In this document: positions 12,935-62,647 of the stretch, piece after piece
Layout: every line of letters begins with the position of its first letter
How positions within the stretch are numbered: the stretch's first letter is position 1
NCBI RefSeq assembly: GCF_019059575.1
Contig: NW_024881674.1
Span: forward strand, 310,001 to 374,000
Origin: Amphibalanus amphitrite
Taxonomy: Eukaryota > Arthropoda > Thecostraca > Balanomorpha > Balanidae
Length of the DNA stretch: 64,000 bases
Reading direction: 5' to 3'
Translations under genes and position numbers: made by a program
The notes under the pieces: model-generated
What the model was told of the DNA's origin: nothing
What the model saw: the letters and a program-made list of their open reading frames with translations, nothing else
Database searches by the model: none

Positions 12935-13283
12935 CATTTGTGTGCGGTCAGTCACTCATGACCAGGTATGTCGTGGCTCGTCCCCCGATCGGTGTATTAT
13001 TTGGGAGTCATCCGTCACATCTCCTCTCGACCATTGTTTGACAGGCGGAACTCCATGTATTCGGACATTGGTCCAACTACAATCGGAAAGACAAGAACGC
13101 TGAACAATGTGTAGGATCGGTGCTCGCGGCACGGCGTGGGCGCACAGACTGAGCCAATAGTGTTGGAGCCACACGGCAGGTGTCGCTGCAGTGGCGCCCG
13201 CAGACAGAGAAAGTTTTTGCCGCACGACCCCGTAGGTGTCGCTCGTCAAATGCATTTGTGTGCGGTCAGTCACTCATGACCAG
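12935..13283. repeat. 318-bp tandem duplication, later split by a transposon
   Basis: A 31-base segment ending ATGACCAG at 12965 recurs ending at 13283. The unit 12966-13283 is followed, after the inserted hAT element, by a second partial copy at 17794-17898 (GTATGTCGTGGCTCG... to ...CGGACATTG). The host DNA therefore carried about 1.4 copies of a 318-base tandem repeat, and the hAT element landed at the junction between copies. Confidence 0.8.
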
Positions 13284-13758
13284 TAGGGTTGTTAAAAAAA
13301 ACCGAATTTTGGAAAAGTATATGGGCTCATGGCTCATGTGGTGCGGTATTCTTTTCTGAGTCCAATGATGCCCTTTTTTCTGAAAAGTATTAACTATTAG
13401 GGGCTCCTCAAACGGCTTAAAGAGGACCATGTTACGCCCGCCGACCGGCCGGTATCAATAAGGGCGAGAATTCGACGCCGCGCACGGGCGGCAGCGCCTT
13501 ATCGGCACCGCGCGGCACGACATCTGCCGGGCGGCCGGCCGGGCGCACAGTGGGGATTTTTCCGATCTAGCGCCTATTAATTCAAAAAATATTTTTTGGA
13601 TTTTTGTTTATTTTTTGTGTCAGTAGGGCTAAGAAATGTCTGAATTTTTCATATATGGCATTGTTTTATCTGTATGTCCACAGCAAAACTAGGAAAAATG
13701 CGCCCAAAGTTCACACTCATGCGTGATTACTCAATGGGCTCAGCAAGGCCCGAAAGTA

Positions 13759-14735
13759 GGGTAAGGTGCCTAATTAGCGACCCTTTCCGATTTGCGACCT
13801 ACCTCCCTACAGAAAAACTGGCAGGAGAAAACGGGGTAAAAACATCGTCAAAAGGTCGGCCATAATTTGGTTATCAAATTAAATTATTTTCCGGTCGTCG
13901 ATGTTTCTGGTGGGACGTTTCAGGTGAGTTCCAATAAAAATGACGAGTTTCTTATCCAAAACGTGTGTGTTTGGGCCCTCTCTGATGAAAAGCGATGCAC
14001 ATTAGGATGATGCATCTTTTTTATTCTGAATCGACATTCCTTTTTTAATTGATTGCCGTTTTCCCATAGTGAATCGCTCAACTGTGCACAGCATGCCGGT
14101 TAAAAATGTGTCGCAACTCATATTTCCTATTTGCGCCTGACATGGTCGCAAATAGCTCAAGAGGGGAAAGAAAGGGGAAAAGAGAGAAACGAAAATGAGG
14201 TTTTGCTGAAGCTTGCAATGTGTGGCAGGGGATGCCAAATGTCGTCACCGACTGCAGGGGTGCCGAATTCAGCGCGGACCTCGAATATCATACAAGATAG
14301 CCCGCAAAATTTGGGTTTCTGCCTTCTTTTCGCCTTCGGTGCATCACGTGATCAGTTTTTACTTACGTAAATGTGTTGGATAAACGTTCCTGTTCGAGTG
14401 ATTGAGTGCTTTGCGTATAGGTTACCTTTTTGAGATCATATTTCATCTTTTCAGGCGTCGCATTTTTTGCCATTTTTAATATGGGGAAACCCATAGACTT
14501 ATTAGCGACCCTCCCCGGTCGCTAATCGGGAAGAGTTCCCTATTAGCGTTTTTTGCAATGGCTTGCCAAAATGCTCACTACAAATAAGTTAGTGAATATT
14601 GAGGCAGAAAATGACTATATTTTAATAGAAAAATGAACGATCTCTCCGAAAATCAAGCCAGTAACACAGTGGCACCCACAGAGCGTGAGCAATGACGGTT
14701 CAAATTAAGGGGGTCGCTAATTAGGCACCTTACCC
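13759..14735. mobile_element. TA-flanked MITE (Tc1/mariner-type), nested in the Transib-like element
   Basis: The inverted ends read GGGTAAGGTGCCTAATTAGC and its inverse (about 26 bases) between TA dinucleotides at 13757-13758 and 14736-14737. The motif TTAGCGACCC recurs inside (about 14500-14540). It is 977 bases with no transposase, and is the youngest layer of a three-level nest. Confidence 0.82.
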
Positions 14736-15233
14736 TATAGCTCAATTTCATTGTCCTGTCCTGTTGGTTTTAATCTTTCGAAGTCTTAAAGTTGCATACC
14801 GTCTGAAAGGCACCTTTATTAGGAATGGAATGGCAAACAGAAAGTATGCCACAACCTTACTAAGGTCACAAAAATGCCCTTTACAAAAAACCCTTACAGA
14901 CACCATATTGAAGGAATGGTATTCTAAATAAATGTAGGAAATCAACAATGTTCTCCACACTTTTCCACTCCGAAATATATCCTATCGAATTCGCCACTTT
15001 CTTCTGCACAAGACAACGCCTAGTTTGGCTGCCGAAACTTGCCTGAACACGGAATATTCACATTAGAGTATCTTAACACCCCACTCGAGGAGCGCTAGGG
15101 CAAACAGCACGATATAGGTATGTTCCGGACATAGGCGAATAATTTTACTTCGTGATTTATATGATGCATATTTTCTGAGACACATTCATTAGGAATAGGA
15201 TGACAAGCGTAAATTATACATACCGTAACCTTA

Positions 15234-16100
15234 TTAACCATCGCACTTGTGGGGAGGGGGAGGGGGAAGGGGTCGGATAAAACCCCATGGTTTTCCGCAA
15301 ATTACTCGCGCAAAAAGCGGCCGATCGCGCCGAAACTTTCGGTACCCTCGAGATCATCAATTTTACATCTAACCTAAAAATTTCATGACTCTGACCCAAC
15401 TGACCTTTGACCTGTGGCATATTTCTCGAGACTATGTTTGGCCGGAATCGCGATTCGGCGTATGCCAGCTCACATTATCCGCGGTTTCCAGTCTTTTTGT
15501 GGTTTAAAACGTTCAAATATGTGAAATGATGTTGGTGCCATGCATAATGGTGGGAGTCAAGGTCACGTGAAGGTCAAGTCAAGGTCATTGACCTTTTGAT
15601 GACCTTGGTTCACTTTTTCGAGTTTTACTTGTTTCTAGGGTAGTTTTTGGTGCTGATTTCGATTTTAGCAGCCATTTGAATATTTACGAAGTAGTTCTAG
15701 TGCCTTCGTTCCATGTTACGAAGCTTTCAGTAGTAGGTGACACTTCTATGGATGGCCGGCAGGACGCCTACTAATTGATCTAACCTGACCTGACCCGACC
15801 TGGCCTAAATGCATAAAGACATCGTCTGTGATCAAAACTAACATGAAATTCGTGATCAGCACCCCAAAATACCCCTTAACACCCTAACTTTGCGAAGTTT
15901 CAAGAGGTTTCGATTTCCCAACTTTCGTTGGGTCATTAAACTGACTTGGAAAGTCAGCTTATGACCTTGGACTTTGAAATTGGATATATTCGGCCTAATT
16001 TCGTCATAGGCAGCACGCTTGACTTTTCCGCGAAGCTCTAGCTTGATCAGGGGCCAAACGGCTGAGCGGGGGGTCCAATTGAACCCCCTATACTATGTTG
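15234..16100. mobile_element. degenerate segment resembling a piggyBac-like GC-run MITE
   Basis: It begins TTAACCATCGCACTTGTGGG, followed by a G-rich run and GGGGTCGGATAAAACCCC. It contains AGGTCA clusters (15550-15610) and ends near GGGGGGTCCAATTGAACCCC at about 16068. This is the layout of the TTAA/CCC elements elsewhere in the window, but the right TTAA is not visible. It is probably an old, worn copy. Confidence 0.4.
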
Positions 16101-17793
16101 ATTATGCACATTTACAGGTAAAATTCTCACCAGGACACACCAGCCAACATCTGTGCACAATCTGGCTACAATTCTACCTATGGTTTGCCCTCTACGAATA
16201 AATACGTGCTAGATCGGAAAAATCCCCACTGTGGGGCGGTGGGAAGTTATAAGTGGGTGGTCTTTATCACGCGATCGGGGTGCGCTATCCCATGTTTTCG
16301 GGGCGGAAAGCTTCAGTGCAGCATCGGTGCGTCTGCCACGGTGGTCTGTGTCGATGGTACAGAAAATAACTCAAACAGAGCTCAGAAAAGACTGAATGAT
16401 TCTGGGTAGTTGCCTCGAAACAATCCGTTTCAATAATACAGCTGCCTTCTTAACGTACTGTATCACTTGTTAATTCTTCAAAAAGCAAGCTCAGAGCAAT
16501 AACAGACTTCTTTGCATTGCTGTTGACAATTCAAGCTGCTTTTGGACGGTGGCTCGCAGCCCCAATATGCTGCCGCGTAACTCTATTCCAACGACGAAAC
16601 GGCAACTTAGCGAGAATTGAAAATTTAACGAAGTAGGTACAACAGGAGCTGGCAAGGCTCCTGCATTGGTCTATCCGTCATGAGTGACACACCGGGGTAA
16701 TGTGTCACGTCAGGGCAGAGCTGTGTTCTGTGCCGGGTCTGGATTCGGGTCTTGATCAGCATCGGTGGGCACGGCCGCCCTGGCCGGACTGCCGGCGTCG
16801 CTTATGCTCGAAGGATTGGATAAACGGCGCTTGATTTATATGAGTAGGTACTCCGGCTAATGTCTCTACTCATGTCTCACTTCGTCACACTGTCAGGGTG
16901 GCCACCCTGTCATTCCCAGACATGTTATGTTTTCTTTCGACCTGCTAATCTAAGTTAAACCCTGGCGTCGATTCTGTTGCCCCAGCATCTGATATCAACG
17001 TATCTGAATAATGACATTGGTGACGCCTATGCTCGTCAAAGCCACCTCCAAACTTGGGCCGATGACTGTCGGGTCTCCTCTAAATTATGTCCTTGTGCAT
17101 ACTGCATTGCCAGCCCCTGCTGTAGGTATATCGTGAATTTTCGATTCTCGCGAAGTTGCCGTTTCGCCGTTGGAATAAAGTTGCACGGCAGCATATTGGG
17201 GGTGCGAACTACCGTCCAAAACTAACGTAAATTGTCAACAGCAATGCAAAGAGGTGTGTTATTGCTCAGAGTTCGCTTTTTGAAGAATTAACAAGTGATA
17301 CGGTACGTTAAGAAGGCAGCTGTATTCTTAAAAAGGATTGCTTCGAGGCAACTACCCAGAATCACTCACTCTTTTCTAGCTCTGTTTGACTTATTTTCTG
17401 TACCATCGACACAGACCACCCGGTGGCAGACGCACCGATGCTGCACTGAAACTTTCCGCCCCGAAAACATGGGATAGCGCACCCCGATCGCGTGATAAAG
17501 ACCACGCACTTAAAACTTCCCACCGCCCGGCCGGCCGCCCGGCAGATGTCGTGGCGCGCGGTGCCGATAAGGTGCTGCCGCCCGTGCGCGGCGTCGAATT
17601 CTCGCCCTTATTGACACCGGCCGGTCGGCGGGCGTAACATGGTCCTCTTTAAGCCGTTTGAGGAGCCCCTAACAGTTAATACTTTTCAGAAAAAAGGGCA
17701 TCAATGGACTCAGAAAAGAATACCGCACCACATGAGCCATGAGCCCGTATACTTTTCCAAAATTCGGTTTTTTTTAACAACCCTAATGACCAG

Positions 17794-17898
17794 GTATGTC
17801 GTGGCTCGTCCCCCGATCGGTGTATTATTTGGGAGTCATCCGTCACATCTCCTCTCGACCATTGTTTGACAGGCGGAACTCCATGTATTCGGACATTG
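17794..17898. repeat. second, partial copy of the 318-bp tandem unit
   Basis: This is nearly identical to 12966-13072 and diverges at ...GGACATTG (GTCCAACT in the first copy, TTGACACA here). It is the right-hand flank of the hAT insertion. Confidence 0.85.
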
Positions 17899-18780: not shown

Positions 18781-20898
18781 CCCGCGCGGGGCTGGGGTCT
18801 CCAGCCGAACGCGCGGGGCTGGGGGGGGGGGGGATAAATTTTACCCCCCTCCCTTTTATCTCCCGAACTAATGGTCCGATTTGGAAAATTCAAACGCCAA
18901 TCGAAAGCTCTCATCACGAACTACTAAAAACATGTACTTAATTTAAAGTTTAAGGTCAAGGTCAAGGTCAGGTCAAGGGTACAAATTGCAAGTTTCTACA
19001 GTATCGGCCTTGCACCGTAGTTGCCGAAAAATGGAGTCATGGACTGAGACTGATCGCCCAAAACGTGTTCTTAGGCTACCAAGACAATATTCGTTGCATA
19101 CAATATCATTCAGAGGTCAAGGTCAAGGTCAGGTCAGGTCAGGTCAGGTCACCAAAAAACAAAATATAGAAAAGGGCATGTGCGACACATGTTTTATGGG
19201 TCATTTTACTCATAGAATTCAATAGGCACACTCAATAAGTGGTATGGACCACCTCTGGATGAATTTCAGGTCGAGATCAGGTCAAGGTCAAGTCAAGTGA
19301 GGTCAAATTTTGAAGTTGGTTGTTAAGGCCTAAAAAGGTGTCTATCTGATGCAGTTTTTCACGGCGAATCGAATGGTGCTATTTTTGTTTCCGTACGAGG
19401 TCTAGAACTTCCAAAAAAGTCATTTTTCAAAAATTTTGGGTGTCGTGACGTCATAAAATTTTGAATAACTCCCACATTTTTGAACCGATTCTTCTAAAAT
19501 TTGGTATGTAGGTGCACATAGACCACTTCTCTGACATATATTCCGGTTTTTTCGATAGACTCAAAATTTTGGATTTTATAATGATTTTCCCAAAAAAGTC
19601 AGTTTTTTGAAAAAATTTAGGCCAAAATCCAAAATTTTCAAAAAACCGAGATAGCCATTTGATAGACAAAGTAAAATAACGTATAACCTTTTTTGTTACG
19701 TCTTGATTCCTTTAACCCTCGCCCATGTTGGTGCAACCCCCCCCCCCCTGAGGTTTTTCGGAAATAGTGCAAAAACGGCGGCGCGCAGCGCCGCCAAATT
19801 TTGGGTACCTTATGGGGCAAACCTTGCGCATCTTTTGATAAAAAAAATTGACCGGGTCATGTCAGGTCACGGAGTTATGACGTCACAAAGGGAACAGCCT
19901 CCGGCTGGATTTTCACAAACTGAGTGCCAACGCCCGAGGTTTCCTGCCGGTGGTACGGACATCGGTTGATGGATCGTGATGAAACTTCCCATGCATGTTG
20001 GGGCAAGTATTGGCTATCATATGGTATAAGAAACTTGACCGGGTCAGGTCAGGTCACGGAGCTATGACGTCACAAGAGGAACAGCGTCCGGTACTATTTT
20101 TGAAAAGCGCCCGAACCACTATTTTGCTAATTCTTGTCACCTCAATGGGAATATGCAGCAATATTAGCTTCTATAGGGAGCAAATGGACATCCCAAATCC
20201 AAAAATACAATCAGATTTCAAAAATTTAAATTTTGATTTTTCGAATTTCTGCCGCCGACTGTGACCTTGCCGACTTCCGGCGCTCCCAACGCGCCATTTT
20301 TAGAGCTAGGGAAACGAAATACATACCAAACGATAGAGAATTGATCAAGGATCACGATAGTGAAGGTTTCAAGTCGATATCTCCCACCATTTTGCCGCAA
20401 TCGCCGCGGAAAATTTGAAAAAGTATATTTTTCCGAAAATTTGACCTTTGACCGGTCAAAAGTAGGTCAAATGTTGACCTAGGACCAAAAAATATACCAC
20501 CAATCGCGAGATCTCGGCGAGAGCAATCCGTTGGTCTTTTCCGCTAAGCTCTACGACGCTCCGTTTTCAAACGCCAAGGGGGGGGTCGCACCAACCCCCC
20601 CCCCCCCCCCTGCATGGGCGAAGGTGGCAGATCGCCGTTTACGGGCGAGGGTTAAAAATGAAGATGTTAGCGGCGTTTGAACTTTTGCCGTTTTTGAGGC
20701 GAAAATGGCGAACATGACGTCACTAAAACGTCAATTTCTCAAAAATTTCCGACGGATTTCGCTCAAATTTTCAGGGAACGTGTCAAATTGATGTAAGAAA
20801 AGGTACTGAAAGTTTGGCGGCGCTGCGCGCCGCCGTTTTTGGGATATCGCAAAAATTCGCGAGGGGGGTAAAATTTACCCCCCCCAGACCCGCGCAGG
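18781..20898. mobile_element. piggyBac-like TTAA element (outer copy)
   Basis: TTAA at 18777-18780 and 20899-20902 flank ends CCCGCGCGGGGCTGGGG and, inverted, CCTGCGCGGGTCTGGGG. TTAA plus a CCC start is the piggyBac signature. There are G and C runs just inside each end and AGGTCA arrays at 18952-18979, 19117-19150 and 19270-19308. No transposase. A second TTAA element (19716-20651) is nested within. Confidence 0.8.
19716..20651. mobile_element. piggyBac-like TTAA element nested in 18781-20898
   Basis: TTAA at 19712-19715 and 20652-20655 flank ends CCCTCGCCC...GGGCGAGGG. Close to the right end is a G-run / GTCGCACCAAC / C-run block (20578-20610). Two internal segments, each with GACCGGGTCA(T/G)GTCAGGTCACGGAG (split here as two blocks around 19850 and 20037), form an imperfect direct repeat about 190 bases apart. 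No coding capacity. Confidence 0.8.
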
Positions 20899-33486: not shown

Positions 33487-34541
33487 TCGGCAGCGGAGGG
33501 GAACGGCGTCGACGTCCGGTATCGGATAAATCTCCGCGGATAGTGTCGGTGGTGTCCGTCAGCCGTGTCGAGATACCGGCCGTGTCAGGTGTGACACGCG
33601 TGTCATTTGTGTCAGTTGTGTGTCAAAAGCGGTGGTGATCCTGTCATCACACGGCGCAGCGTCGCCTGTGCAAGCAGCTGGTGTCTTATATATTTGGTTT
33701 GCTCTTACCTTCGTGATTGCTTGGGAGAACCACGCGGTAATTTCTTCTCTCGGTTTCGCTCGAGAGATTTCAGCACCCGCGACGAGGAAGGAATCACGCC
33801 CGGTGCACAGGGCTGAGGAGGTAGATGCAATTGCAGACACGGTGTCAACTTCATGTATTTGTCAGATATGCTTGGAAGAGCACGAGGAAAGTGAAAGAAG
33901 TGTTCATGTAGTAGTGGGATGGTATACAACACGTTCTCTTTTGCCGGATGACTGGTTTCATGCATAGAAAACCTGAATGTTGGTGCTACATACATGCAGA
34001 GAAACTGCATTGCAATGCTTCCGCCAAATAATCCTTTCACTTGCCAGTAAATACAAATGCACACTCGAAACCTATTCGTTCAAGGATGAGCAGTCGCACG
34101 TTCAAAACTGAAGAACCTCGTGAGATATGACCTTTAGGCTGGCATGCTATGCCAAGTTCAGACAGTTTGATGAGCGCCAGTGGTCGCCTTTTTCACACGC
34201 GCGTAAAAACAATCCACTAACGGCGAACAAGCAGCCTCCGTGTCTGCCTACGGAACCCCGTGCCATCCCTTACTGGATAAAAACACCTCGGGGGACGGGA
34301 CACAGCCATAATAAGCAGCTGTTCATATGCGACGGCACCAGGACGCTGCACACTGGTCGGAAACGCTCCAGCGAGAGGCCAGCGGCCTTTCCGCAAAAGT
34401 TTTTTGCTTGTTATTCCACAACTAGTGAAGCAAACTTCATAAAACTTTGCATACCTTCTCTGTCATATGTAAGCTATCATTCGGATGTCAAGCACTAAAT
34501 ATATGACGTGAATCTGTTCAGTTATGACGTCATAATTGAGT

Positions 34542-35191
34542 ATAATACAGGATCTAGCACTACTTTAAGTCAACAAGGGAAATTGGGAGCTGCTATTCGG
34601 GCACCGGGAATGGTTTCATGCACTGCTTGCAAGGTCCAGTGCTTCACTTTAGCATTGTTGACTTTGCATGACGTCATTTATGACGTCACTAAGGCCATAT
34701 AAGTTTTTCGTCAATAACTCCTGATCAGATGGAGCTAGAGAGTCGGGAAAGCCACCATTGGACTCAGGAAGACCTGCCGAATCGAATGATATGCGGTATG
34801 ACCTCCTTCAACCATTTTCGTGACCTGAGGGGCTCCGACCTGACCTTGACCCGAGGTTAACACCTTAAGTTGACTTCACCCGAACACCAAGTATAACATT
34901 CAACGCGCCTGAGCTAGACAAACACGATGATGCCAAAATCGCGGCAGTGCGACCATTTTTGGCAAAGTAATTAACCTAAAACCGAGCCCGTGCCTTGTGG
35001 CACTTACCTGACCTAAGAGGCCACTGGCTGACCTAAGACCTTAAAATCGGGTAGTACCTAATTGTTGCGTCTTATAACGGCACACAAGCTCGTTTTTTCC
35101 GCGAGACTCTAGCTCAATTAGAGGCGAAACGGCGAGGGAGTTGTACCAACCCTCCCCGGTCAATATAGAAAACCAATCGGTCCGGCCAGGG
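34542..35191. mobile_element. truncated piggyBac-like TTAA element, inverted relative to its neighbour
   Basis: Over about 650 bases it is an inverted copy of 35196 to about 35950. The match begins near CAGGATCTAG (34551) and ends CCGGCCAGGG directly before TTAA 35192-35195. It has a deletion relative to its partner near 34560. Its outer end is missing. Confidence 0.7.
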
Positions 35192-35195
35192 TTAA

Positions 35196-36231
35196 CCCTC
35201 GCCGGACCTATTGGTTTTCTACATACGCGCCGGCCGAGGGGGGGGGGGGGCGGGTACGACCCCCCCCTCGCCGTTTCGCCCCTGGTGGAGCTAGCGCGTC
35301 GCGGAAAAAAACGAGCGTGTGCGCCGTTACGAGACGCAGAGATTGGTACCCGATTTTAAGGTCCTAGGTCAACCGGTGACCTCTGAGGTCAGGTCAAGTG
35401 CCCCAAGGTACGGTTCAGTTTTTGGTGAATAACTTCGCAAAAAACGGCCTCAGAGCGCCGATTTTGGCAGCATCGTGTTCGTCTCGCTCCGGCGCGTCGA
35501 GTGATATACTTTTTGTCCGGGTCAGGTCAACTTGGGGTGTTGACCTCAGGTCAAGGTCAGGTCAGCACCCCCAGGTCACGAAGTTGGTCGAAAGAGGTCA
35601 TGTCGCATATCATTCGATTCGGCAGGTCTTCCTGAGTCCATTGGTGGCTTTCCCGACTCGCTAGCTCAATTTGATCAAGAGTTATTGACGAAAAACTAAT
35701 ATGACCTTGATGACGTCATAAATGCCGTCACGCAAGGTCAACATTGCAAAAGTGACGCATCTAACTTTGCAAGGAGTGCATCAAATCACGATTCTGTGTG
35801 CTTGAGATAGTTGGAGATCGTTCCCGGCGCCAGAATAGCAGTTTTCATTTTTCCCCATTGACTTATAATGGTGAGGTCACGAAAATGACCTGACCTCATA
35901 TGACCTTTAGGAAAAATCCGAGATATATAAGTTGTGGGACTCATAATGGATACTAGATCCTGCAAGTTTCATTTCCCTGTGACATCTCCTCTGGCAGTGA
36001 GGGCGTTGCGAAGTTGCGACATCTGAAGACCGTGCAGAGGTTCACTTATGACGTCATAGGTCAGTGACCTGACCTGACCCAAAAATGCGGTTGGTGTCAA
36101 AAGATGCGGCTTGGATCAAAGGTCAGGTATGCCAAGTTTCAGCTCTCTATCGCCAGCGTGTTCGGAGCTATCGCGAAAAAAACCCTATGGGGGGAGGGCG
36201 GCACCCGCCCCCCCCCCTCGGCCGGCGAGGG
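35196..36231. mobile_element. piggyBac-like TTAA element
   Basis: TTAA at 35192-35195 and 36232-36235 flank CCCTCGCCGG...CCGGCGAGGG. There are subterminal G-run/C-run blocks at 35230-35268 and 36198-36218, and AGGTCA arrays at 35386-35396 and 35520-35576. It has no transposase. It shares its left TTAA with the inverted partial copy. Confidence 0.82.
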
Positions 36232-36235
36232 TTAA

Positions 36236-39200
36236 ATACCGGAATTGTGATCTAATGTAAAAAGACGGCCCAAGGTAACCCGACGTCAGTGACAGGTGTC
36301 CTATATTTGCAGCGTCTTATATTCACGAAGGTTTCAATTTCCACTTTCTTCAGCCGAGTGATGGTTGTCAATAGCAAGGCTCTCTAAATGCAAGCCGTAA
36401 TCGCCACGCAATATGTGGAAGGCTTTTGATGTCAATGCATGCATAAATGCATACATAAAACGCGCTTTTCACAAAATTCATTAACTCAAGCGCATCTATT
36501 TTTAATGACCAGTCAACTACGCATGGATGCGTGCAGGCCACACAGGTCAACGTAAGCCGGGCGCGGCGGCCGAGCCGAAACTGGGGCGGGGCGGGCGGTA
36601 GTTGGGTAGGAAGAGGGGCTCCTGCAAATTTTGCGCAAATATGCGCAGTTAGCTTTTATGTTGCCCTGGTGTAAATTTAAATCCTGCTTCATCTCACAAA
36701 AAATCAGAGTGGAACTAGATGGGACTACCTGTTGTTTCCTTACCTAAACTTTGCAGTTATATTCCAGAATTACTGTAGGAGAGCCTTCATAAAAAAGCTA
36801 CAGTAAATCTTAGTTAGGGAAAAAGTATACCAAAAATTTTGCACTGACCAGTCGGCAACTTCATAACGAACATTTTGATGCATAATATGTGGGATTTCAA
36901 TTTGTTGTCTATCAGCAATAAGACTCTGAATATCCGGCTCAAGAAACCTCTTGCTCCGCGTCAGTTTCCGAGTTCTGGGATACCCCATCTTCGGGGGCTG
37001 ATTACAGTTATTTTGGTCACCCGAATTAGTTTTTTTGGCCTAAGTATAATAATTTGATCAATTTCAAATCGATCTATATAAAGAATAATCCGAAACTCCG
37101 GAATCGCCCGTGGCCTCTCGTGAGGGCGTTTCCGACCAGTGTGCGCTGCACGTTTTATGAAGTTTTTACCCGTGCCGCACCTGTAGGAGAGCTGACCCGG
37201 GTTTGACCTGACTATGACCTGGCGTTGACCTGACTCTGACCTGGCTCTGGACTTACTGCTTCACTGGCCTGATTATTGCCTTGCATGACATAGTTATTTG
37301 CTGACATACCAGCAGCAGCTCTGACCTGACACCAAATTACCACGGGTTAACTGCAGGCGTTTTGATGCTTCTTTAGAACTTTGGCGGCTGCAACCATCCT
37401 TCGTTCTCAACACAAAGCTGAGACACCTCCTTCCTGTCTTACAAGTTACAACCACCTCAACCCTGCTCGGATGCTGCAGCGGTGGTGAATCTGTCCTGCT
37501 AACCTCACTCTACACCCAGAATCCAGACTCTCGTATCCGGTCGAATAGACAGCGGAGTATTTGCAAAGCCTCTGACATTTTGCCAATGCGCCTTGCGGCC
37601 GGCGGTAGGCCACGAGGCAGCGATGGAACGGCTCCGGATTAGGGTCACCGCATCTCATCAGACCGGTGAACGATGTCATAGGTCGTGCAGACTAATCTGA
37701 TCACATATTCTGCTAGCCCGAACCCTATGGCTTCTTCGACGAATGCATGCGATTGCACAATGCTTTTGAAATGCTTTTAGCCATTATAGCTGCATTCGTG
37801 GTGAGGTTGCGGAAAGCCCAATGCCTCACGTGTCTAATTTGAATAATTTCCTCCTTCTATAATTGGATTGAAATCAATTGTTGGCAAGTATTCTGCTACG
37901 ACGAATCGATAATTTTAACAAATATTGACATGCATGTCCATCAGCACATTCCGATGGTGCCGATACGCAGGTTGGTGGAGGATACCGGTGGTCGCTCAGG
38001 CTGGTCTCTACTGAGCTGGTTTTTATCGGCAGCGACCACCACGCACGGAGCGGTCAAATGCGCCGCGCTCGCCGCCGCACGCCCATTCCACATGCGCCAC
38101 GTTCGCCGCCGCGCGCTGATTTCGCATGCGCAGGCCGGCGCGGAGTTAACGGTTCACTGAACGGCGCTGCCAGCACGGCCCAGTACGGTCTCAGTACGGC
38201 TGGAGAACGGTTTCAGCACGGCCGACGGCTGCCGACCCCTGCACTCATGCGGAATGGCCCGATCGAATCGCTGTGAAGTGCACATCTGAGCTAGTGTGGG
38301 TGTTGTGCTGAAGCCTGCAGTGTTTCTTTATTGCCAATGCTGCAAGGGGCTAGCGGTGCTGGCAATGTATTGCCAACAGAAACGGTTCGGACGTTCTTGC
38401 TACTGTAGCTGTCGGTTTGTCTAACGAGATCAAACACTGAAGGGGATATTGTTATGCATGATTGCAGTGGTTAATGAGCAATGCTACCGCTATTCCGTGC
38501 GCCTGATGGCTCGTTTATCCACTTAGACACTATTCACTTGTGTTTTGCTATGCATGATTGGACTTCCAATGGTGATAATATGTAGAATTTCCACCACATT
38601 GTTAATATTACGGATCATCTTGTGTATGAGAATGTCATAGATTTTCTAGCTATTTGAGGAAGTGGCATGTCAAAAGAGTTACAGATATAGGCAATAGCTA
38701 TGATTGCTGATATGTTGAACCCTAAAACCTAATGCATTATATATCTCCTGGTAAACGTATGAAAAATATCGCAAAACAGTGACACATTGGACCGTCAAAA
38801 CTAATAGCTACGGAGTAAATATGAATCGAAGATTTAAAATTGCTGCGTCGAAATACTTACGAACATATCTGCTGACGCTAAGGCAGCCAACTTAGATGCA
38901 TGACTATGAATAACATATCACTTCTGATATGTATGCGATGACGTTATAGGACAACCAGACACCGGAACTGGTGGCTTGTCATCAGACTCATATTTGAACA
39001 CAAACCGATGACGTGGCAGCTTTTTCTCCGAATCTTTCTACGTCGCATAAGTGACCTCTTCGGCCATGCCCATCAGTTAAAACACTGCGTTACATAAAAG
39101 TACCCGATGACCGCGGGCCTAACCAAACGGCTTACCGGTCTACCGAATAGGGGGTTGGGAGGATGACTCGCTGTTTGGCCGTCAGTCTCAAGTCGTGATT

Positions 39201-51920: not shown

Positions 51921-52185
51921 TTAAATGCATACACATTCGTACATTATAACTGCGCTGTGTAGTGATGTGACCTCGGTCCTCATACCAACAGTTGAAGGTA
52001 CACAAAATAATAACTTTTGCATTACCATGCATAAAATGTAACCCATCGTTTTTTTCTGTCTTTCTCCGTCTGATTCATAAGCTGTCTTTTCTGTAGCCAA
52101 GCTTAGCTGTAAACTCCATTACTTTTCAGCCACTCAAAATTGCTATACAATTCGTCTGACCGATTCCGTTCTCTCTCGTTCACAG

Positions 52186-54031
52186 CAAGCGATGCGGGCG
52201 CGGCAGCGGGTGACGGACCGCGCGGACGAGCCCGAGTCTGGCTCTCCGCCGGTTGACACCGCCGCCATCTCCTCCAACTTCAAGCAGAACCTCACATTCT
52301 TCCAGAAGGCGGCCCACAACCTGACCCGCTCTACGCCCCCGGCCCGCAGCCGTCCGACGCCGCGCCGCAGCTCCGTCGGCTCCGACGGCAGCTCCGGCAG
52401 CTCGGTGGCTTCCGCGGCCTCCGTCGGAGATGACGACTTCGAGCCGGTGCTGTTCGTCAACGGACGACCCCGGTACGTGACGTCAGAGGCGGCGAGCGCG
52501 CCCATTGGCGGAGCGCCCGTGTCGGCGGCCGGCGCCGCGGACGGCCCGGCAGTCGACGACGGCGCGCGGACAGCGGCGGAGCGGACCGACCGCGCTGCGC
52601 AGAAGGTGCGGATCGGGGGCACGGCGGCAGAGCGGATACGGGCCGGTGGAAAGAGCGCTGCGGAGAGAGCGGCCAGCAGCAGCCCGGCGCGCTCTGGACG
52701 GACGCAGCAGCCCACAGCTGCCCAGAGCTCGGTGAGTGATACGTCAAGGGAGAGGAGCTACGACTCGCGCGAGAGATCGTCCAGTGCGCCGGCGAAACGA
52801 GAGAAACCCTCAGCGAGCTCGCACTCCAGTGAGAGACTTTCTTCGACCACTCCCTCAAAGCGGGAACGTGCCGGCTCGAACGACTCCTCCTCCATTGCGG
52901 AGAAGCCATCAAGTCGCAGTTCGTCTAGACGAGACTCTGAACGGCAACTGAGCACAGACTCTGACCAACCCGCAAATAACTCAGAGGTTCAGCCGCCGAG
53001 ACGGAAGCCTTACATCCGATTCGGCTCAGTTGAAAACCATCTAAGTCATGACGACTTGACGTACTTCAAGCAGACGATCGGCATCCTCCCTGGCGGCGGT
53101 GGTATCACACGCACTCAGAGCTGTCAGGAGGGTCTGGACTCTCCCGCTCGGCCCGCGCCCGTCTCGCGCACGCTCAGCTTCAGCTGTCTGGCGGATGTGG
53201 GCGGCGAGCCGCGGTCACTGAGCGGCAGCAGGACCAGTCTTCGGCGAGCTCCTTCCGTTGAGGAGATCCTCGAGTCGGTAAAAGCCCTTCGCGTGAAACG
53301 CCAGCAGGACGAGATGGTGCGAAACTCAGAGCCGGAGGCTGAGTACCAGAACGTGGGTATCAAGTCGTCGTCGCGTTCTGGCAAGGGCCGACCTGCGCCC
53401 TGGAGCGGAGTGCAGTTCAGCGGACCCGTTCGTAATGTCGAGTCCGACGACCCAGCGCTGACACCCGACGATGCCTGTTATGAGAACGTGTCGGCTGGCG
53501 GACAGGCTGTCTATCAGAATTCTCCGCTGAAGTCAGAGGTCATTTACGACCAGCCGGTGAAGCAGAGACGGAGACGCCGTAAGACGCCCGAGGAACCCCA
53601 GCAGCTTTACGAGAACGTGCAGTTCAGCGACCAGACCGGCGGCGAGTACCAGAACACGACTCTGCTCTCCAAGTCGCAGCAGAACCTCTCTGAGCCGGAC
53701 GCTGTCTACGAGAACGTCGAGAAGGGTGTCGTCTCCGTATCCGGAAACGGTCTCCTCTCATCGGGTCAGTATGACGTTCCACGTACGGCGTCGCACATCT
53801 ACGACGCGCCTCAGCGCACGCGCATCAAGAACGTGCAGCCGGCTGAGTCTGGCGAATACGACTCACCTCGGCCGACGTACGGACCGGGCCGCTCGGAGCC
53901 GCTGCCCACCCGGTCTACACAGATCGTCCTGAAGGGCGGCATGGCGGTGCCGGCGGTGGAGCAGGCACAGGATTGTGATCGCGACTCACTGGACGGTGAC
54001 GGAGGCCGGCGGCCCGACATACCGTCACCAG
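52186..54031 (+). CDS. large internal exon: multi-tyrosine SH2-docking protein
   Basis: An open frame of 615 codons, by far the longest in the window, follows a strong acceptor (pyrimidine tract, TTCACAG at 52179-52185). It ends at a donor, CAG|GTGGGT, in phase 1. Numbering from the Met at 52192: residues 26-44 (SSNFKQNLTFFQKAA) look like an ordered or amphipathic block; 45-265 are mostly Ser/Arg/Ala-rich and probably disordered; 271-297 (YIRFGSVENH...) and 354-371 (SVEEILESVKALRVKRQ, a helix-like segment) look constrained; RTQSC and RTLSFS near 310 and 329 resemble 14-3-3/basophilic-kinase sites. The C-terminal third has Y-x-N motifs at Y385, Y430, Y441, Y473, Y486 and Y506, and YDxP motifs at Y452, Y527, Y537 and Y556. 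RRRRRK lies at 459-464. No SH3, PH, PTB or kinase domain is visible. By known SH2 preferences these would recruit Grb2/Drk and Crk. I do not recognise the family. The exon probably continues upstream into the exon(s) before Q-A-M. Confidence 0.85.
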
Positions 54032-57000
54032 GTGGGTGCTGTTCCGGGGGGAGAGTGGGTGGTGTGGGGACACAACCTGTTTATAAATGTTGGAGGAATA
54101 GGCACTTTGAAAGATATAGGCACCTTGTCTATCAGCTAGTGAGATAAATCGTTCAACTACCTATTAAGGATGAGCGTTGAAGAGCTCTTATAAATTTTGC
54201 GCTGACAGTGCTTTTCATTTCAAACGTGTCCCGTCCTTTGAGCATAAATTCAAACTAGCCAATTAGGGAAACTAGCCAAGCCAGTAACTATATTCAGAGC
54301 GCTGGTTTTCTCGTCAACTCACGGCCCACCTGACTGCAGGCGCGGTGGCACTGTTTGTCCCACATTCCAGGCCGTCAGGCCGCTCTAAAGAGCCCGTTAG
54401 TCGATCGCCGCCCGTTCCGGCTCGCTGTCCTGTGAGCTGAGTCATATCGCGAGGCGTAATAGCTAGTCAGCTGCAGACGACGTTATCAATCACACATCAG
54501 CGATGCCCGATTTAGTTCGAAAGCCACCGCGTGCTAAATAGATAGAACCATGGACGAGATGTGTTATCTGTAAATGTAGATGTAAAACTAGCTTCACGTC
54601 CCGAGATCTCGCTGAACCGAACCGGACACGCTATCTCGGGCGCATTGCTCCTGTAACCACTTCCGCCACCTTCTGGGTGATGACTCACCCTGGGTTTTAT
54701 CCGGCAACATTTTTTCCTTTATCCGTTCGATCAACTTCCAAGTGATCTACTCGACCTGACATGAAATCCAACTAGTCCTCTCTAGTCCTTACATCTAGTC
54801 AGTTGTCTAGGACGACACTCTCGCGCTGCTTTATCTTACCTTGCTCTTTTATATCGAGTCTTTTACTTTTTAGTCTTCGTATCTAGAAGGTTCTCTCTTT
54901 TGACACACTTGTTTTATTAAAACCACGTTATGGGCGCAAAATGACCTAAGTAGTCGGCGCGCCCTAAAGCCCCAATTAACAAACAAACAAACACGTCCCG
55001 AAATATAAACTCACGTAAATTGTGATTAGGTAACGAGTCAAATAATCGTAACAACTTCTTACGGATAGTGGATAAAAAACGGATGAAAAACTATCGGTTA
55101 GATTTTTGCTCAAACATCTAGCATCCCTATAGCCCCCCCCCCTTCCCCCCACGGCGGAGAAGATACCAGGAAATATCGGCATACCGAGTGGAACGGTTCC
55201 ATATCAGTAACTTGTCACCTTTTCCATGCATAATTCGCGTCACGGAAGGGTAGAAAATCGTGCTGTGTTTTTCCGTTAATGTTTGTGTTGGTGTTCCGTT
55301 AACTGTCGACTTCCAAGAGTTCACCCTTAGCGCTTCTGCAAACGTCAGAGTTATTGACCACGAAGAAATGCGCTGAGTCACTTGACATATTGACTCGTCA
55401 GTTAGCTCCTGCATTGGCATGACAGTCTGATGAGCGGAGCAACTTCACGATGCACATCTTGATTAACTGAACACCTTAATTTAGTTGGTTGATCCCCTAC
55501 TCGATTCAGTCATTGAGGGACGCTTCTGCATAATTGTTAATTGTTCATTACCCAGTGCTCATAGTGTCTTATGTTGGGCTGTTGGAAAACGGTCTTTAGT
55601 CTGACGCCCTCTCACGTATCCAGGAACACAAAAAGGAAATGCTTTCACTTTGTACGATTGTTATACGTGCAGCGATGAAAATCAAGCACAATAGTAAAGA
55701 CAAACGAAACCGACGCGACAATATGATCCCATGTCGAGATATAGTAAACAGAAAGCCCTTACAAAAGCAGGCTATATCAAAGACAATTGCGAAAGTCATG
55801 GCCCGATTCCCTCCGGGCTACATGTGGTCACAGCTCATTTTGAAGCGATCGTTTTTAGTGATGGAGCCGAGTCCGAAGATGGTATGTGAGTTTGCCGTGG
55901 ACACAGTCATGACGCTGTTCGTAATATCTGAAAGTGGTTCGCTCGACAGACCAGCAAGACTCGAAAACAATCTTCATAATTAAAGCCTGGGACATTTATA
56001 GCGCTGCGACAGTCAGATGTCGGTGATCTATCAGTAAACGGCCTTGAAACATACTTGTGATCTTCACGGATGCTGCACTTCCGTGACATTATTGCGTGAT
56101 GCTGAGCTAAACGCGAGACACGTCATGTTTAGTGGTAACTGCTTATGTTGAAGTCGAGGAATATGAGCGTGGTCAACATAGATTTCGCGGATTCTCTCTG
56201 AGTGAAATCCCGATCGCGTTTTCCTGTCACGTGCGCCTCACCATAAATGATAAACGAACGAACTAACATCGAATAGAACCAATAGACCAACAGAGTACGG
56301 GACAGCGGACACAACTGTCTCAGTCAGCTGTTGTCGCCTTTTCTGCCCAACAGACGTCCGCAGTCCACCGCCTCTGGCACCCTGTCCCAATCAGCGCTGA
56401 TGACCGCGCGTGCGACGCACCCCGCGGCAACGCCGCGAGACATTCCATGATCATCACCCAGTCCGTTAGTTCGCCGCGTGTGTGTCCGCGAGTCTGGCGC
56501 GCAGTCTGCGCCCGTTATAAGTTACAAGACGACTCCGCCCCGACCGCCACAGCGCCTGCTCGAGCCTCGTGATCAGCGGCTGGTCGCGGGTTTCCGTTAT
56601 CGGCAGGAGCGAGCGCCCGTCTGACATCTGTTGCTACTGACACGCGCGGGACTCGCGGGCTGGGACTTCAGACGCTTCGGGACGGTGCGGGACCTGCGGG
56701 CTGGAACGTGGGACGTGCAGTGGGACGTCGTGAGACGCTCTGGAACGACGCGGTGCGTGTTGAGCCACGCGAACAGCTCTGTCTTTGCGTTGCAGGTGGA
56801 TCGCTCATTCCCAATTGCGACTGCTGCGGTATGTGTGTGTGTCTAACTGGCGTCTGCTCTTGTAACTCATGCATAATTTCATGAAGAAAAGAGCGAAAGT
56901 GCGAGAAATTATGACCACTAAAATGATCTTGTTACCCGTTTAGGCACTCAGCTGCTTGCGAAGCACCGATGCAATGTTCTGGCGCCGAAGGGCTCTGGTC

Positions 57001-59793: not shown

Positions 59794-61320
59794 CCCGGCA
59801 CCGCCTGGGCTATTTCCGTACCCACGACAGCCTGGGGGGGGGGGGGTCGGATCCGACCCCCCCCCCCACTGTTATCTCGAGAACCAATGGTCGTATCGAA
59901 CCCCGCGAGGCGGTGTTCGAAAGGTCTCTACGAGACCTTCCCAAAGCACTCTTAAGATTTTAAGATTGAGGTCAACTTTCGGGTCAAGGTCAGGTCAAAG
60001 GTCAACTTCTGGGGTTTTGCATGTTTAGGCTTACGGACAGCGGAATCGATAGCTGCTGCTCAAAACTCACCAAAAATGACCTCAAAGGCCTAGTGAAGGT
60101 ACCATGTGCGTATAGGGGTCATACTAAGCACGGGTCAAGGTCAGGTCAGGTCACGAAAGGTCACGGTTTTCACTTTTTACTAAATGGGCGTGCGACACAT
60201 GTTTTACGGCTTATTTTTTTACGCCGAATCCGATGGTAATGGTTATATGTGACCCCAAGTTACTGTGCTGGTGATAAGTGTGCATTGAAAGCATAAAAAT
60301 TCGTTTATACCATACATAACTAAACGAGGGCTAAGAAAAAAGGTCAATTTTTCAACTTTTTATTTTTGACATAAAAATGCACTTTTCTATTACGAGCTTT
60401 GTCCCAGGAATCTAGTGGCAGGGCTGCGGAGTCGGAGTCGGAATCGGAGTCGGTCGGAGTCGACAGTTGTGACCGGAGTCGGAGTCGGAGTCGGAGTCGA
60501 TTTTAGAAACCCGAGCCGGAGTCGGAGTCGGAGTTACCGAAAATCTGTCGACTCCGCAGCCCTGCTAGGTCTGCGGAGTCGGAGTCGGGAGTTGGAGTCG
60601 GTCGGAGTCGACAATTCTGCCCGGAGTCGGAGTCGGAGTCGGAGCTGGTTTTTGAAAGCCGGAGTCGGAGTCGGAGTCGCCGAAAATCCATCGACTCCGC
60701 AGCCCTGTCTAGTGGTGCCATTTGTTTTCACCTGCGATGTTCAGAAGTGCCTCTAATTCACGAAAATGCTTATGAAGTCACCATGCCCTATGCAATATGC
60801 ATGTTGGAGCTATTTTTTACAATTTGGTGGTCAAAAATCAAGATAGTTGAAATTTGGGACATCGAATGTTCTAATAGAGCTCTATAACATATATTCCGGT
60901 TTTTTGTTAATTCTCAAAATTTTGGATTTTATTAGCTGTTTTCCAAAAAATATAGTTTTTTGAATTTTTAGGGGTGAAAAACGCATTTTATGGAAAATCC
61001 GAGATAGCCATTTAAAAGAACTCGTTGAGCTGCGTCTGTTCATGTCCTTAATTTGAAATTTGCTTTAAACCTTGATTTTAAGCGATTTTTTAAATATTTA
61101 TCATTTTTGACTGAAAACGCCATGTAGTTACATCACTAAAATCGATATATCTCAAATCAAAAAAAAATCTTAAAAATTACACAGGAGACGTCAAATTGAT
61201 GGGGGAGAAGGTATGCCAAGTTTCAAGTTGATAGCGTAAGCGGTTCATGAGTTATTCAAGAAAAACGGAGGGGGGGGGGGGTCGAATCCGACCCCCCCCC
61301 CTCCCCCAGGCGGTCGCGGG
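59794..61320. mobile_element. piggyBac-like TTAA element carrying a hAT dimer
   Basis: TTAA at 59790-59793 and 61321-61324 flank CCCGGCACCGCCTGGG and its near inverse. Almost perfect hairpins lie just inside each end: G-run GTCGGATCCGAC C-run (about 59834-59868) and G-run GTCGAATCCGAC C-run (about 61268-61302). AGGTCA arrays lie at 59985-60000 and 60135-60162. Part of its AT-rich interior resembles that of the 18781 element (for example GATAGCCATTT and CCGGTTTTTT). It contains the hAT dimer 60419-60707. Confidence 0.83.
60419..60707. mobile_element. dimeric hAT MITE made of GGAGTC repeats
   Basis: It begins CAGGGCTGCGGAGTCGGAGT and ends CGACTCCGCAGCCCTG, between perfect 8-bp duplications TCTAGTGG (60411-60418 and 60708-60715). 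Two head-to-tail monomers (60419-60564 and 60571-60707) consist mainly of GGAGTC hexamers. The second lacks the CAGGG start. As only one target duplication surrounds both, they moved or were amplified as a unit. Confidence 0.88.
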
Positions 61321-62647
61321 TTAAGTCATCTAGTTATATAAATGAGTAGGTACTACATTGTACCAGAGATATAATAAGATCGTTTCCACTGTATTTTATA
61401 AATAAAGGTACTAAAAAGTCTCGAAATTTACGATAAGAAGAACAACTTAATAGTCCAGCAATCTGCAAATTTCGTTGCCTGCTGAGCTCGGGCGGTGTTA
61501 CCCAACAGTCGGTGTTACCCCGAAAAATGTAGACATTTACTAAATGATCGCTATACTAAATCGCTATACAAATGCAGCTTCAGAGTACTATGCGATTGTG
61601 AAATTACTAACGTATAGACAGACTGGCCACAATCAAATTCAAGCATGCCATCACAGTTCACATTTAATACCCATGTTTATTTAAGGGGGAAGGTAAATTA
61701 TAGGCGCCAAGGTTGTTAGTTGATAACCTGTGTATCGATGTGCTATTCATATAAAATCTACTAATCTCATTCGATCCATCCACCATCCGTATTTTCCTCC
61801 GACAACCCCGTGTTCGCTTCTGTTCCGGCAGAGTTTCATGGCCACCAGCGCACGCGGGAACCCCAGACCGTAAATCACCGTGTGTTGACAGTCCCTCCCC
61901 GCCGGTCGGCGCGACTCGCGGGTTTTATTACATGGGGGAACGGCAGGGACCGAGGCGGAGACCCATACGACATCTAGCGGCACTCCCTTGAACCAACAAA
62001 ACAGTCAAAAAGTGGATATGATTCGGGCTTAATTCCAGTCACAGCTCCAACATTTCTGAAAAGTAAAATTCATTTTCGTGTGAAGAAATGTTCTGTGCAC
62101 ATTTCTATGTAGCCACTTTTTTATTTTATGCCTCACACAAAAAATAAAAGATGAGCAAAGTTTTACTTTCATTTTTTGCAACATTGCAAAAAGAAAATGG
62201 AAAATCGGAGTACATAGAATTGTTGTCCACTTTGAGGATATGCGGTTGCCATTCATTTTTTGCGCCTAGTTTGAATGACGTTTAATGAATTTCGGCCCAA
62301 ACTTTTCAGTTTTTCCACCTTTATCGTGCAATATCAACGTGAATATTGCACGGAATCAAACAACTTGTCCAGAGTAGGCTTCGTATACTGTTGGAGCAGG
62401 TACATGCCAAATTTGAGGCTAATATCTCTATCGGTTTTCAAGATATTGCGGTTTTTCACCTCCCATTGACTTAACATTAACATCGCACCCTTAAAACGTC
62501 CATGAGAAAACAATCGAGAAACTCTCAGCCAACCTCTCAATCTAACGGGCTGTCACGTAACTATGTAATCTTTTCAAGCTCATTGCCAGTGATCGACCTC
62601 GCCCTCGACTCTCTCCATTCACTCGTGTTATTTTATGTCGATTTCAG

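Follow-up and report, generated by a model that had tools for sequence, protein, structure and literature searches.

Transib DNA transposons usually have ends of the form CACNNTG. Papers on Transib ends, in the portions available, give CAC together with a similarity to the RSS heptamer; Drosophila transib1-4 are entered there with 2167-2883 and 40-45, in columns that we read as length and repeat length (PMC10299278), and Hztransib is described as 3518 bp long with a GC-rich 5-bp duplication, GCTCG (PMC1852546). The targets of RAG are reported as 5-bp and GC-rich (PMC11844651). Symmetric ends are ascribed to most Transib families, those of Hztransib showing little or no nonamer resemblance in the account of PMC8289069; two reviews say of some Transib ends that their heptamers and nonamers are identical to those of RSS (PMC6941560, PMC8355894), and in other Transib ends a block resembling the nonamer is said to follow symmetric spacers of 20-22 bases (PMC8355894).

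In the 64-kb window, i.e. the whole stretch of DNA analysed here, we describe a non-coding Transib-like transposon (element 1; 13546-16233, 2688 bp with a nested insertion included; whole elements, nested stretch and target duplications are given unstranded). As far as the cited sources go, element 1 shares with Transib (Drosophila transib1-4 and Hztransib) the CAC-type symmetric ends, repeats of ~40 bp and a GC-rich 5-bp duplication, and with transib1-4 a total length of 2-3 kb. It differs from members of the superfamily in that no transposase gene was found and ~1 kb of its length is a nested insertion, and it is shorter than Hztransib. With a probability of roughly 0.87, we take element 1 to be a Transib-type DNA transposon that is non-autonomous and would depend on a Transib transposase acting in trans. 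As no transposase is present, membership rests on the structure of the ends, and the label "Transib-like" used in the preliminary description appears well supported by these ends together with the proven 5-bp GC-rich duplication.

Termini, empty site and interior of element 1

Both termini of element 1 read CACAGTGGGGATTTTTCCGATCTAGC (26/26 identical), bearing out the earlier report of CACAGTG at each end, and the repeat continues imperfectly to 38 bp with 35/38 identical bases (92%), the left copy lying at 13546-13583 on the plus strand and the right copy at 16196-16233 on the minus strand. The element is bordered by GGGCG at 13541-13545 and 16234-16238, and among flank lengths 2 to 9 that were compared, only 5 bp gave a match. 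The flanks themselves belong to a hAT-like foldback element (13284-17785) that is split by element 1 and whose opposite arm holds the uninterrupted insertion site: when the flanks were joined and aligned to 17563-17484 of that arm (minus strand), 77/80 bases agreed with no gap and with a single GGGCG, and a longer join across element 1 gave 92.9% identity over 687 columns. The GC-rich 5-bp duplication claimed previously is thereby confirmed, and the empty site retained in the opposite arm of its host proves element 1 to be an insertion. Its 22-base end occurs at two places only in the window at up to 3 mismatches (0 in 100 shuffles), i.e. there is a single copy with these ends in the 64 kb. 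The heptamer CACAGTG alone is not special, with 12 copies in the window vs. a shuffle mean of 8.59, and at least 12 in 19/100 shuffles.

Nested in element 1 is a 981-bp stretch (13757-14737). Its inverted ends match perfectly over 27 bp, and their outer TA is readable as a TA target duplication; without this stretch, element 1 measures about 1.7 kb. Element 1 has no recognisable coding sequence: its longest stop-free stretch is 88 residues, a comparison of its six frames with Pfam revealed no transposase or relic of one (the lone sub-threshold hit was TrwC, E 0.14), and the same frames against PDB sequences gave a lone sub-threshold hit to an ATP synthase chain (E 0.87). The lack of a transposase is expected of a non-autonomous element.

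The host foldback element begins TAGGGTTGTT and is flanked by the 8-bp duplication ATGACCAG at 13276-13283 and 17786-17793, in keeping with the hAT superfamily; one frame of the whole host element and four frames of 16239-17523 gave no hit in Pfam. It sits within one copy of a local duplication (12935-13070, 13253-13283 and 17783-17898), with 99% identity between 12955-13070 and 17783-17898 over 116 bases. We infer that the host foldback element came first, then element 1, and then the TA element nested in it. In the mechanism that we propose, a Transib transposase encoded elsewhere in the genome would bind the ~38-bp inverted ends of element 1 and would presumably cut adjacent to CAC, after which the excised element would insert at a GC-rich 5-bp staggered target, in this case within one arm of the hAT-like foldback element, leaving GGGCG on both flanks; the TA-duplicating element would have inserted into element 1 later.

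Element 2 and the survey of end pairs

Eighteen kb from element 1 is a second Transib-like element (element 2; 34349-37143, 2795 bp) with the ends CACACTGGTCGGAAACGC, CACACTG at both ends and a target duplication, CGCTG, at 34344-34348 and 37144-37148, so that inverted ends of the CACNNTG type are present in both elements. Element 2 can also be read with ends one base longer, GCACACTG, and a 3-bp duplication, GCT. A scan of its six frames against Pfam gave no match with an E value of 1 or below. The left half of element 2 is mostly a large imperfect palindrome (34611-35788, 80% identity over ~1200 columns).

We surveyed all pairs of CACNNTG-type ends lying 60 to 12000 bases apart in the window (n=1242), with 200 dinucleotide shuffles as the control (892 pairs on average). 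At least 13 of the first 16 bases were identical in 5/1242 pairs and all 16 in two; a 5-bp flank match was seen in 2/1242 pairs, and these are the same two, namely elements 1 and 2. The remaining three pairs with at least 13/16 had no flank match at lengths 3 to 9. No 16/16 pair arose in any of the 200 shuffles, the best shuffled pair having 15/16. A shuffle held a mean of 1.17 pairs with at least 13/16 and at most 5, as many as in the window itself; for 5-bp flank matches the mean was 0.88 and the highest count 4. Neither count is therefore significant by itself; the weight of the survey is in the coincidence of the 5-bp flank matches with the 16/16 pairs.

A general catalogue of the window yielded 53 inverted pairs with at least 14 perfect bases, six of which have a flank duplication of at least 5 bp: the host element (8), elements 1 and 2 (5 each), a 289-bp sequence at 60419-60707 (8), and two pairs (13366 and 34759, trimmed by 2 to 3 bases) that lie inside long imperfect palindromes and were taken as coincidence. 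The sequence at 60419-60707 has the ends CAGGGCTGCGGAGTCG, the 8-bp duplication TCTAGTGG and a hAT-like build, and it is found amid local direct repeats. A degenerate repeat module, often beside C or G runs, occurs at 15928-16078 (in element 1), 34995-35149 and 35258-35406 (in the palindrome of element 2), 19126-20877 and 59835-61324, with about 64-92% identity over short stretches. An open frame of 688 residues with repeated YENV/YQN-like motifs (52081-54147) may be a host-gene exon. The Pfam scan of window ORFs took 6 of the 46 with at least 120 residues; this frame gave nothing above threshold and one sub-threshold hit (E 0.13), and the other five gave no hit.

Copies were also sought in other collections. 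An 18-base end pattern of element 1 matched one viral contig, as a single copy in seemingly unrelated sequence. A 21-base pattern of element 1 had 0 matches in bacterial and archaeal genome contigs, and a 20-base internal pattern had 0 matches in collections that are viral or bacterial/archaeal; negatives from such collections carry little weight. For element 2, the 17-base end was found in 5 viral contigs comprising three distinct contexts (L002 agrees with L005, and L003 with L006), one copy each and with no inverted partner, which we took as chance.

V(D)J signals and rival superfamilies

The preliminary description had drawn attention to AT blocks inward of the heptamer, and these do start exactly 23 bases past it at both ends of element 1 (ATTAATTC on the left, ATTTATTC on the right), within the 38-bp imperfect repeat. 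Its statement that they do not match the classical nonamer was likewise borne out, with ACAAAAACC agreeing at 4/9 positions on the left and 3/9 on the right, which is background. No nonamer score in element 1 exceeded 4/9 at spacers 11-13 or 22-24, and 4/9 is the commonest best score at background positions. Scores of 6/9 do occur at other positions: in forward orientation the left end alone has one, at spacer 29, and in reverse orientation both ends have them at spacers 0-2, the right end at 20 and the left end at 38. Element 2 has CCAGCGGCC and CCACGGGCG at +23, and the AT block is absent there. An AT block near +23 would in itself be ordinary, because symmetric spacers of 20-22 bases are reported for Transib in the available text of PMC8355894. 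What is not supported is the significance previously attached to the exact RSS heptamer and to the 23-spacer layout, since RSS-identical heptamers are reported for some Transib ends and element 2 has CACACTG, and since the block scores as nonamer background and is missing at +23 in element 2. The CACAGTG ends of element 1 are expected for the Transib kind and are not unusual, and little is gained from comparing them with V(D)J signals.

The exact heptamer at both ends, the AT-rich block 23 bases inward and the 6/9 nonamer-like matches might be read as a functional pair of RSS-like signals genuinely related to the vertebrate 23-RSS, and CACAGTG does fit the motif CACNRYR that RAG1/2 is reported to prefer (PMC9723617). 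Element 1 resembles the vertebrate V(D)J RSS in this heptamer but departs from it in having no nonamer at 12 or 23 (best match 4/9, at background) and in the absence of 12/23 asymmetry; one 38-bp layout is found at both ends, so there is no 12/23 pair, whereas V(D)J joins 12 with 23. The lack of the AT block in element 2 also speaks against such kinship. The GG context is also poor: both ends start CACAGTGGG, i.e. CACAGTG followed by GG, and in the RAG1/2 assay on 12-RSS substrates, as far as the source (PMC9723617) is available, there is a marginal overall preference for the consensus heptamer, yet CACAGTGGG ranks last among the canonical heptamer forms (0.020 vs. 1.144 for CACAGTGAT, CACAGTG followed by AT). 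We regard such kinship as barely credible. A related speculation, to which we attach very little weight, is that of an invertebrate Transib family with true RSS-like ends that vertebrate RAG1/2 would cut as readily as its own transposase does, the AT block serving as a primitive second recognition element.

Assignment to another superfamily must be weighed on other grounds, since CA..TG termini are, according to the available text of PMC12730594, mostly common to the CMC lineages (CACTA/EnSpm, Mirage or Chapaev) and Transib, so that the ends alone do not discriminate. With duplications of 2 to 5 bp in these lineages and CAC..GTG termini in fungal EnSpm (PMC12730594), element 1 could be a CMC element with CA..TG ends and an aberrant target duplication, and the alternative reading of element 2 with GCT would agree with such an origin. 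The lengths reported in the parts of the sources at hand are 3 bp for EnSpm (PMC12730594) and 2-4 bp for CACTA MITEs (PMC9033116), whereas the flanks of element 1 match at 5 bp rather than at a shorter length, the empty site agrees, and elements 1 and 2, with differing ends, both permit a 5-bp duplication; we consider a CMC origin unlikely. Descent from a RAG1L-RAG2L (RAG-like) transposon, which would make element 1 a non-autonomous relative of that group instead of plain Transib, would account for the CAC start and the 5-bp duplication, both common to RAG-like transposons such as ProtoRAG and protostome RAGL (PMC7204232). The ends compare poorly by eye: the protostome RAGL consensus CACTWMCAAACKTYKBB, as given in that source, differs from element 1 at all of positions 4 to 7 (AGTG in element 1) and has AAA at 8-10 where element 1 has GGG, and the ProtoRAG heptamer, CACTATG, is unlike CACAGTG. 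This descent seems to us highly improbable.

Meaning of two Transib-like elements in one genome

We thus favor element 1 as a non-autonomous Transib transposon, and it represents a cleanly documented Transib-type insertion, with the empty site kept in the other arm of its host. Given that elements 1 and 2 differ in their heptamers (CACAGTG vs. CACACTG), heptamer position 5 appears to be variable in this genome. If both elements are Transib, the terminal heptamer varies at this position within one genome, and the occurrence of the exact RSS heptamer in one family would therefore be of little evolutionary weight.
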